Source: Cytidiella melzeri
Lineage: Eukaryota; Basidiomycota; Agaricomycetes; Polyporales; Irpicaceae
NCBI GenBank assembly: GCA_022592445.1
Contig: JABYQR010000083.1
Location: 1-64,000 of the forward strand
DNA: 64,000 bases
Reading direction: 5' to 3'
Part shown: in pieces, positions 47,473 through 52,507 of the stretch
Layout of the letters: every line of letters begins with the position of its first letter
Position numbering within the stretch: the stretch's first letter is position 1
Position numbers and translations under genes: made by a program
Notes under the pieces: generated by a model
Database searches by the model: none
Told to the model about the DNA's origin: nothing
Seen by the model: only the letters and a program-made list of their open reading frames with translations

Positions 47473-48464
<992 letters not shown>

Positions 48465-48877
48465 TTCCGTCGCATTGCAAACTTGTTGGTTGGAGGCGGA
48501 TATACCAAGTACACTCTATACACGAATGAAAGAAGAATTTTTCTAGGGATTATCCGCTGCAGCTGCAGTCTCAACAAACTACACGATATGAAGTACAATG
48601 TCCTCCGATCTTCTACTAATGATAATCCAATATTCATACACAGGGCTTTCTTCAGCAGACTTTCCACTGTACGCATGCAATAGATTCTAGATTCAAATGT
48701 ACGCCGCCAATCTATATCCCTCCATTGTGATCATCGCCTTGCACGTCGCCTTTCCCCGACGATCGACGTGTAGGATCTCGCCGTCCACACATACAAGATG
48801 AGCTTGTTCGTCTTTCTCGTGCTATCAGGGATTCAACACATCAGGGATCCCGTCATCAGCTTAAAGAGAAAGACAGG
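48465..48877. other. Intergenic, convergent 3' ends of URA6 and the lipid kinase gene
   Basis: 413 bp with no recognised feature. An A/T-rich part around 48520-48670 probably holds the 3' UTRs and polyadenylation signals. Confidence 0.45.
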
Positions 48878-50473
48878 TCAACTCACAGGCGTCCACTCCC
48901 ATCCACCACACCTGAAATATTCTACGACCAGATCGCCGTCCTCACCATCCTTGCTATCAACAACCTTCCCGTCTTTCCCAACATACCTCATCTGCACATG
49001 CTTCCCATCCTGGTATGCCCCACCTAGGACAGTCATGCATTTCTGCGCGAACGCCTCCCTGTCGTGATCTGAGTCTGCGCGGATGGACTTGTCGCGCAAC
49101 GGGCGGAGAATGACGACATCCAGTGTCGCAGGTGATGAAGGGGCAGGAGGAAGTGAGGCGAAGAGGGGAGTGATCCTGAACGCAGGCTCAAGCCGGTCAA
49201 CGTTCACCGTGGAGAGAAAGTACGCGAAGGGACCCTCGAGCGTCGCAGCGCCGCCGTCCTGGTACGGTACGAACTTGTTCTGGGAGGCCTCGTATATCTG
49301 TACAGCCGCGGGTTCACTGCTGGAAGGGGGTAGAAGTTTGACAGAGGCATTGTACCAGCGAGTAATGTTCTGATGTGCAGCGACCTTGAATCGCTCGATG
49401 CCAGGGTGTGTAGCTCTGAGAGCCTCCGAGTCATGCAGGATTGATGCGTGCAACGCAGTCGACGCTACGACTGCGGAAATCGATGATGTCTCGCGTTGTT
49501 TCCCATCCTTGCTTGTGAGAGTCGTCTTGGCCACTGTGAGCGAACGGAACGGGCTGTACTTGCTCTTCTTGGTCTTGCTTTTGTCCTCTTGAATGAAATC
49601 ATCTTTGGTAAGGAAGTCATTTTCGGTGAGAAAAGCTGTTTTGGGCAGAAAATCGTCCTTCGTAAGGAGCTGTGCGTCTTGTATGAAGTGGTCCTTGGTC
49701 AGGAAAGCTTCCTTCGGGATGAAATTATCCTTTCGGAGCAGTTGCTCCTTCGGGATGAAATCATCCTTGGTAAGGAAAGCATCTTTCGTTAACGGAGCGC
49801 TGTCTATGTTGAACGCTTCTTCCTTGAGCAGATCGTCCTTGGTCAGGAAGGACTCCATTGGAAGGAAGTCGTCCTTGCTAAGGCGGGAATCATCTTGCAG
49901 GAAGTCGTCCTTGGTAAGCATCTGAGCGTTCTGGATGAAATCATCCTCTGTGAGGAATGCGTCCTTCGAGAGGAATGCACCGACTTTGAGAAAAGCGCTT
50001 TGCGGAAGAAATGCTTCATCGGTGAGAAATCCGCGAACGGACATCAGCTTCTGCTCGTCTGTTCCCAAATCGGAGGCAGTCTCCGGGAACAGTGAAGCGT
50101 AGAGGGCATTGGCTGTCCCGCACGGCACGAGGGCAAACTTGATATCGCGTCCACGCGTATCTGGTGCGGAGTGGTAAAGCGCAGACACAATCTCGTGCAG
50201 TGTTCCATCGCCTGACGCCAGAACGACATTGATCGGACCGTCGACTTTCTTGAGGAAGTCTACGATTAGTTCTCCAGCATGACCTGGATGAGTGGTTTCG
50301 ACGACATTCTCTGGCTCGTAACCCCCACCCTGAAGCATGGTGATGACATTGTCGTTGATGAACGTCTTTGCTTTTCCGTCGCCACACACAGGGTTATATA
50401 TGACCAAAAGGTTCGATGAGGAAGGCATGTCGGGTCTAGTGCGCGCATGTAAGCAATGAGCGTTGTCGGTCAT
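48878..50473 (-). CDS. Diacylglycerol/sphingoid-base kinase-domain protein with hexapeptide repeat insert
   Basis: Single-exon gene of 531 codons. The N-terminal DAGK catalytic half (residues 16-135) has NLLVIYNPVCGDGKAKTFIN, VVLASGDGTLHEIVSALY (nucleotide loop) and FALVPCGTANALYASLFP, as in lipid kinases of the sphingosine/ceramide-kinase type. Residues 149-298 are 25 uninterrupted hexads with a consensus alternating between FLTKDD and FIPKEA (nt 49580-50029). Residues 330-531 resume the C-terminal lobe: SISAVVASTALHASILHDSE, RFKVAAHQNITRWY, FAYFLSTVNVDRLEPAFRI, DVVILRPLRD and EYFRCGGWEWTPV. Without the insert the protein would be about 380 residues, close to an ordinary family member. The substrate lipid is unknown. 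The start could instead be Met16 (50428). Confidence 0.85.
   Translation of the reverse strand: MTDNAHCLHARTRPDMPSSSNLLVIYNPVCGDGKAKTFINDNVITMLQGGGYEPENVVETTHPGHAGELIVDFLKKVDGPINVVLASGDGTLHEIVSALYHSAPDTRGRDIKFALVPCGTANALYASLFPETASDLGTDEQKLMSVRGFLTDEAFLPQSAFLKVGAFLSKDAFLTEDDFIQNAQMLTKDDFLQDDSRLSKDDFLPMESFLTKDDLLKEEAFNIDSAPLTKDAFLTKDDFIPKEQLLRKDNFIPKEAFLTKDHFIQDAQLLTKDDFLPKTAFLTENDFLTKDDFIQEDKSKTKKSKYSPFRSLTVAKTTLTSKDGKQRETSSISAVVASTALHASILHDSEALRATHPGIERFKVAAHQNITRWYNASVKLLPPSSSEPAAVQIYEASQNKFVPYQDGGAATLEGPFAYFLSTVNVDRLEPAFRITPLFASLPPAPSSPATLDVVILRPLRDKSIRADSDHDREAFAQKCMTVLGGAYQDGKHVQMRYVGKDGKVVDSKDGEDGDLVVEYFRCGGWEWTPVS
49580..50029 (-). repeat. 25 tandem 18-nt coding repeats (hexapeptide array)
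   Basis: In-frame array inside the lipid-kinase gene. Every sixth residue is aromatic or aliphatic and is followed by Leu or Ile in nearly all units; units such as FLTKDD, FIPKEA, FIQDAQ and FLPKTA recur. No indel breaks the six-residue period. Nucleotide copies have diverged while the amino-acid pattern is kept, suggesting selection on the protein rather than recent expansion. Confidence 0.9.
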
Positions 50474-50747
50474 TAATAGAATATGACACTTACTCGTAAG
50501 CTTGCAGGAAGATGACTGAGATCAGTGTTATAAGGTTGAGTAGGCGCGAGTCTGGACGCCGCGCGCGGTAACTAAATTTGAGAAGGAGGGCTAACAGATC
50601 CGCCGGTGTCGGTGAGTTTGGTATAAGAAACCGTGTAGGTTCTAGACAGTGACGGCTAGCGTGAGGACTGTGGGCTGCACTGGGGAGAGACCGTTTTGGC
50701 TCACCTTTGTTTCTCTACACTCAGGCTGTAACACAGACTTAACGGAC

Positions 50748-50812
50748 GAGGAGGGGGAGGAGGAGGAGGAGGAGGAGGAGGAGGAGGAGGAGGAGGAGGA
50801 GGAGGAGGAGAG
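50748..50812 (+). repeat. (GGA)n microsatellite
   Basis: About 18 perfect GGA units (50757-50810) plus imperfect flanks, in the interval between the divergent lipid-kinase and NIT2 genes. It makes a Glu-rich chance ORF on the plus strand. Purine/pyrimidine tracts like this can act as nucleosome-excluding promoter elements. Confidence 0.9.
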
Positions 50813-50959: not shown

Positions 50960-52507
50960 ATGTTCCTCCTCGTCAGTCGCCAGTGGCATCTGCGCTTTGT
51001 CTTGCCACGCTCTGCGACCAAGCTGTACACAATGTCAACTTTGCCTCCGACGTTTAAGCCTTTTAACCTCGCGCTGGTGCAGCTCGGCCAGATCACAGCG
51101 GACAAGTCTGGTCAGTGCGTGAGACAGAACCGTCGTCTACCACACAATCTGAAGTGGAGATGATAGCAAACCTCCAGCATGCGAGGGACATGATCTTGAA
51201 AGCTGCACAAGGGAGCGCGAATGACGAGAAACCCGATGTCATTGTTTTACCTGTGAGCTGCTATCGTCTACAATCGCAATTTCTCGCCTAAACTACTGGC
51301 TCTTAGGAATGTTTCAACTCGCCGTACGGACATGTCCACTTCCCAGTCTACGCTGAGACAATCGGATTTGAGCCTGGGAAGCAGTTTGAGACTGGAAAGA
51401 CGGAGAGCGAATCTGTCAAAGTGCTCTCAGAAACCGCGAAAGAGACTGGTATTTGGCTAATTGGGGGTACGTTCATGTCCAATCCTCACGCTCTATGCTC
51501 AGTAGTTCTGCAGGTACCATTCCGGAACGAGCGATTGATGGAAAGTTGTATAACACTGCGGTTGTGTTCTCTCCAGAAGGTCGTTATGTCGATTTCGTCG
51601 CTGCGCTTAGTGCTTATCGCTAGGTTTGCTCACCCAGGTGAGCTGGTCGCGACCCATCGGAAAGTACACCTCTTCGATATAGACATTCCTGGGAAAATCA
51701 AATTCAAGGCAAGTCGTCAAAAGATCGATATGCTTTCCTTACTCACTGCAGTGTGTCAAATAGGAGAGTGAGACTTTGACCGGTGGCTCATCTAACACCT
51801 GGTTCGACACTCGTGAGTTCTGGCTGGAGACGTCGTCGCAGCTGCTCAAGCCTGACGAGATCAAATCAGCTTTTGCACGTATAGGTCTTGGGATTTGTTA
51901 TGACGTTCGCTTCCCCGAATTGGCTGCCATATCTGCTCGGAACGGCTGTCAGGTATGCATATACCCGGGGGCCTTTAACACAACTACGGGCCCTCTTCAC
52001 TGGGAGCTGCTGCAACGCGCAAGGTGAGAAAATCAAGGCACCTCCATCCGCTTGTTTATCGACGGAGCTTGCAGAGCGATAGACAACGAGATATATTTCG
52101 CGATGTGCAGCCCTGCAAGAGATGTAACAGCTCCATATCATGCAGTACGTTTCTCATAATAGGTTCGGAACCGTCGCGTTGCTTAATACGAACTTGACGC
52201 AGTGGGGACACTCGATGGTGGTTAATCCCATGTATGTGTGTCGTTCCTCGGTGGGAGTATGAAGAATGCTGACTTATGACCTACGACTGTGGATCCGCAG
52301 GGGGGAAGTCATCGCTGAGACAGAACACGACGAAGATATCGTGTATGCACACATCGGCGCGTGACGTTCTACAGATGCGACACATTGTACTTTCACTGAC
52401 TCATATACCATACAGATCCTGAAACCTTTGCTCAAACTCGCGCAGGCATACCGGTCACGACGCAGCGCAGGTTCGACGTGTATCCGGATGTCAGTAAAAA
52501 TGAATAA
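50960..52507 (+). CDS. NIT2: Omega-amidase / Nit2-like nitrilase-superfamily hydrolase
   Basis: Hydrolyses the omega-amides of alpha-keto acids such as alpha-ketoglutaramate. The conserved protein starts at the second ATG (51032, [20 protein letters not shown]). The first ATG (50960) adds 24 residues, [18 protein letters not shown] onward, basic and without acids, like a mitochondrial presequence. The catalytic triad is complete: Glu in [11 protein letters not shown], Lys in [13 protein letters not shown] and Cys in [85 protein letters not shown] and the tail [18 protein letters not shown] also match. About ten short introns. Confidence 0.92.

Follow-up and report, generated by a model that had tools for sequence, protein, structure and literature searches.

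How does a lipid kinase come to carry twenty-five consecutive six-residue units between its two lobes, and what could such an insert do there? The question is raised by a gene on the minus strand of a 64,000-nucleotide stretch of the Cytidiella melzeri genome (contig JABYQR010000083.1, positions 1 to 64,000; hereafter the window). The hexapeptide array is present, in coding frame and placed between the lobes. Our favoured reading, to which we assign a probability of roughly 0.48, is an array gained between the nucleotide-binding and lipid-binding lobes of a sphingosine-kinase-like enzyme of the Irpicaceae, with its peptide under selection, serving as a non-catalytic, acidic and multivalent appendage.

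The array comprises 150 residues in 25 hexamers, free of indels and stop codons. Phenylalanine occupies unit position 1 in 19 of 25 units and leucine or isoleucine position 2 in 24; position 4 is lysine in 13, position 5 is D or E in 18 and position 6 is A or D in 17, which gives the degenerate unit F-[L/I]-[T/P/Q/x]-K-[D/E]-[D/A]. The original prediction, made from the sequence alone, spoke of 25 perfect hexapeptide repeats; this applies to the spacing, which is exact and without indel, but not to the letters, which are degenerate. Identity at lag 6 was 44/144 (z 9.0) versus 13.5 ± 3.4 in shuffled sequences and at lag 12 59/138 (z 13.8), values reached by none of 5000 shuffles. As lag 12 is stronger than lag 6, the twelve-residue pair is the better period, and the units are weakly paired as twelve-residue units. 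The codon pattern of FLTKDD, with up to two mismatches, was found nine times in the window, eight times within the array, with 0.46 expected.

The kinase open reading frame (ORF) has 531 codons (48878-50473, minus strand). The deposited C. melzeri protein P0002 (556 amino acids, labelled 'ATP-NAD kinase-like domain-containing protein') begins at residue 16 of the ORF and is completed by a second exon, and the joint translation of exons 1 and 2 equals P0002 in every letter. The final two codons of the ORF (VS) are a read-through into the intron; because the second exon lies past this intron, the uncorrected ORF lacks the last 42 residues including VDGE. The gene is composed as follows.

50087..50410, minus strand: match to DAGK_cat (PF00781), the nucleotide-binding half with SGDGTLHE and GTANALY, ORF residues 22-129 (coordinates computed from residue numbers)
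49580..50029, minus strand: hexapeptide array of 25 units, ORF residues 149-298, equal to P0002 residues 134-283
48887..49579, minus strand: linker and the exon 1 portion of the C-terminal lobe, past the array
48887..50428, minus strand: kinase exon 1, start codon at ORF residue 16, giving P0002 together with exon 2
48822..48886, minus strand: 65-base intron, GT...AG, entered by the open frame
48693..48821, minus strand: exon 2 of the two-exon translation, 42 codons and stop, holding VDGE

The array is situated entirely inside exon 1 of the deposited model, behind the DAGK_cat match and ahead of the C-terminal lobe, so that both the proposed location between the two halves and the coding in one uninterrupted exon were borne out. 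A scan for two forms of donor-like sites yielded positions 50389, 48986, 48945, 48886 and 48794, none of them inside the array. An error of annotation or assembly, or an intron retained in frame (exitron), would agree with an array length divisible by three, but is highly improbable in view of the position of these sites, the occurrence of the array in five proteins from separate database entries and the conservation of the peptide pattern. Antisense to the array, open frames of 98 and 110 amino acids are present (window 49496-49925, plus strand), which probably arise incidentally from its 18-base period rather than as genes.

The kinase parts around the array were predicted to fold normally. 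The DAGK_cat profile scored 61.8 bits versus a curated cut-off of 23.6, and the predicted fold is the two-lobe fold of solved DAGK_cat and sphingosine kinase members. The assignment to the DAGK-type kinases thus holds on the profile, but the predicted fold is nearer to sphingosine kinase 1 (PDB 3vzb and others; 19 % identity) than to the bacterial diacylglycerol kinases and YegS (also PF00781), which had a lower structural score. The sequence match to sphingosine kinase 1 stops at the start of the array and leaves the C-terminal lobe uncovered. Judging by the fold alone, the substrate may be a sphingoid base. In the own genome, the whole protein had one weak second match (C667, E 1.7e-4, 36 % over residues 58-128).

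A survey of Agaricomycete orthologues for the array had been proposed in the original prediction and is answered in part: 548 homologues were obtained at E 0.001, and loop lengths were compared for the 120 listed ones. The distance between fixed anchors was 186-192 residues in five proteins, which bear the array, and 36-53 residues in the other 115, array-less agaricomycete orthologues that represent the same kinase with 46-64 % overall identity. The five bearers are the protein of the window itself, from C. melzeri, those of Irpex lacteus, I. rosettiformis and Trametopsis cervina, and one ENA protein; the species are related wood-decay fungi. The genus Irpex, along with C. melzeri, T. cervina and I. 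lacteus, is assigned to the Irpicaceae. A tree calculated from rows 1-60 of the 120 listed, with the array columns excluded, placed all five on one side of a single branch (support 99/93), a topology consistent with a single gain, though a tree alone is no proof. At the alignment columns where the first unit has F-L, 86 of the 115 array-less orthologues carry F-[LIV] (FL 33, FI 29, FV 24), which suggests, on the basis of one alignment, that the array may have grown from a native helix end.

Recent minisatellite slippage was considered and dropped: the synonymous difference between units was 0.793, in line with the value obtained by reshuffling the synonymous codons within the array 200 times (0.795 ± 0.013), and the longest exact DNA repeat in the array had at most 16 bases. 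The array looks old and not like a recent stutter. Constraint across species was judged on protein sequences, with Trametopsis (P0006) excluded from the unit-by-unit and shifted-register counts on account of its broken register. Between C. melzeri and I. lacteus, same-position units had an average likeness score of 19.6, other units of 10.7. The in-register array identity to the three relatives was 0.64, 0.55 and 0.58 versus 0.28-0.49 at all shifts of 6-60 residues.

Several results weigh against the favoured reading, and part of them would be expected if the array were a tolerated expansion of a surface loop, with a minor functional role and free to drift as long as frame and solubility are maintained. 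A C. melzeri unit was best matched by, or tied with, the same-position unit in just 15, 6 and 9 of 24 cases for the three relatives, so the unit-by-unit constancy is weak; between I. lacteus and I. rosettiformis the count was 13 of 24. Conservation of the array fell below that of the remaining protein in the comparisons with C. melzeri (identity 0.51-0.64 versus 0.66-0.73) and with Trametopsis (0.47-0.51 versus 0.63-0.66), as expected of a weakly constrained loop. Among the three Irpex-like rows, the array (0.80-0.82) nearly matched the remainder (0.83-0.84). Loop length varies in the array-less orthologues as well, and the Trametopsis array has twelve-residue gaps, in keeping with the lag-12 peak, and a four-residue insert. 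These points favour a tolerated expansion, but the hexapeptide pattern persists despite randomised synonymous sites, in-register identity exceeds that of every shifted register tested and none of the five proteins contains a stop; we regard such a drifting loop as unlikely. The remaining adverse points concern structure. In the full AlphaFold2 model, residues 141-290 had a predicted local distance difference test (pLDDT) score of 39-51 per ten residues, and the array modelled alone had a mean of 39.7; since the alignment consisted of five related arrays, these low values are no evidence of disorder. The array as cut is 150 residues long in three rows and 144 in a fourth, a near-constant length which argues for a folded over a flexible module.

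A folded repeat domain of an undescribed kind, built either as a solenoid or from stacked one-turn helices, might act between the lobes as a scaffold or rigid arm. Besides its length, the two large hydrophobic residues per unit and the exact register across the 25 Cytidiella units speak for such a domain. Both the full and the array-alone model placed helix mainly at unit positions 4-6, and the helix-cap-like pattern [LIVMF][STDNG]xx[DE][LIVMF] occurs eight times in the array (mean 1.15 and maximum 6 in 2000 shuffles), in part restating the repeat consensus. The hydrophobic moment was 0.527 at 60 degrees, the peak of seven angles tried, and 0.039 at 100 degrees. With a moment near zero at 100 degrees, a single amphipathic alpha-helix does not fit, as had been anticipated for a six-residue period. 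The beta-solenoid or short-helix stack proposed at the same time was not substantiated, for structure prediction on the present alignment gave no confident fold. Also contrary to a folded domain, all five arrays fall on the disordered side of the charge-hydropathy boundary, that of Cytidiella by just 0.001. The folded domain is accordingly possible but doubtful. Rather unlikely, to our judgement, is the more specific proposal of a founder of a new repeat class, in which one-turn-helix hexapeptides that arose in one fungal family from the native helix end would build a folded regulatory or scaffolding arm of a sphingolipid kinase. The hexapeptide repeats of left-handed beta-helices share the six-residue period with the array and follow the pattern [LIV]-[GAED]-x-x-[STAV]-x. 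This fold was rejected, as the pattern fits none of the 24-25 units in each of six registers, and a Pfam scan of the array at E up to 10 revealed no family of this type.

The original prediction knew of no comparable periodic insert, and the array indeed matched no named repeat family above cut-off in the Pfam scan. Matches to NCBIfam were far below cut-off, and a sequence comparison with PDB chains at E up to 10 gave no match. The LED repeat (PF20854, cut-off 59 bits) was approached weakly by the relative P0005 (E 0.0054, 17 bits) and still less by the window array (E 7.6, 6.7 bits); its one match in the own genome (E 8.77) is located away from the array. Two size classes of protein were covered by the array searches, about 82-262 and about 306-973 residues, with scoring limited to those candidates that had most words in common with the array; an occurrence of the repeat in any longer protein would have escaped. 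In the larger size class, P0002 residues 132-287 retrieved at E up to 10 only the five array-bearing proteins among 7997 scored candidates; in the smaller one, the array profile retrieved none among 7995, again at E up to 10. Pattern matches in a genome contig collection (144) and a viral contig collection (133) yielded no confirmed array, and the whole protein had no match among plasmids. In the own genome the array is single-copy, with one further match (E 0.0755) in a low-complexity repeat; the consensus pattern was found once in the array and once elsewhere, and its reversed control also once. A long low-complexity tandem repeat of this genome (L004 on C706), open in several frames (LPTDI-type), is unrelated to the array. 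Published work on such an array was not found, judging by titles and the openings of abstracts.

The kinase is flanked on the plus strand by parts of two genes, one of the carbon-nitrogen hydrolases (PF00795, E 2.1e-11, window 51776-52027) and, on the other side, one of the adenylate kinase family (PF00406, E 2.2e-8, window 47866-48168). Between the kinase start and the next gene upstream, the trinucleotide GGA is repeated about 22 times in a row (window 50744-50810).

Under the favoured reading of a selected appendage, the array would have expanded by duplication, starting at a native helix end with an F-[LIV] pair already in place. The expansion would be old enough for synonymous sites to have become randomised, and the array would since have been maintained by selection on the peptide. 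More conjecturally, the acidic multivalent appendage would stand outside catalysis, with each of its short helical turns offering a single hydrophobic contact through F-L. It might bind a partner or itself and thereby place or regulate the kinase, at a site where lobe movement or partner recruitment could be affected. The roles as scaffold, lipid sensor or regulator put forward in the original prediction are likewise conjectural. The net charge of the arrays, -13 to -18, makes binding to anionic membranes by charge alone unlikely.

The locus presents a long repeat module born inside a conserved enzyme within one fungal family, for which the array-less sister proteins serve as controls. A folded array would amount to a new repeat architecture, an unfolded one to a clean model of multivalent loops that might regulate lipid kinases.
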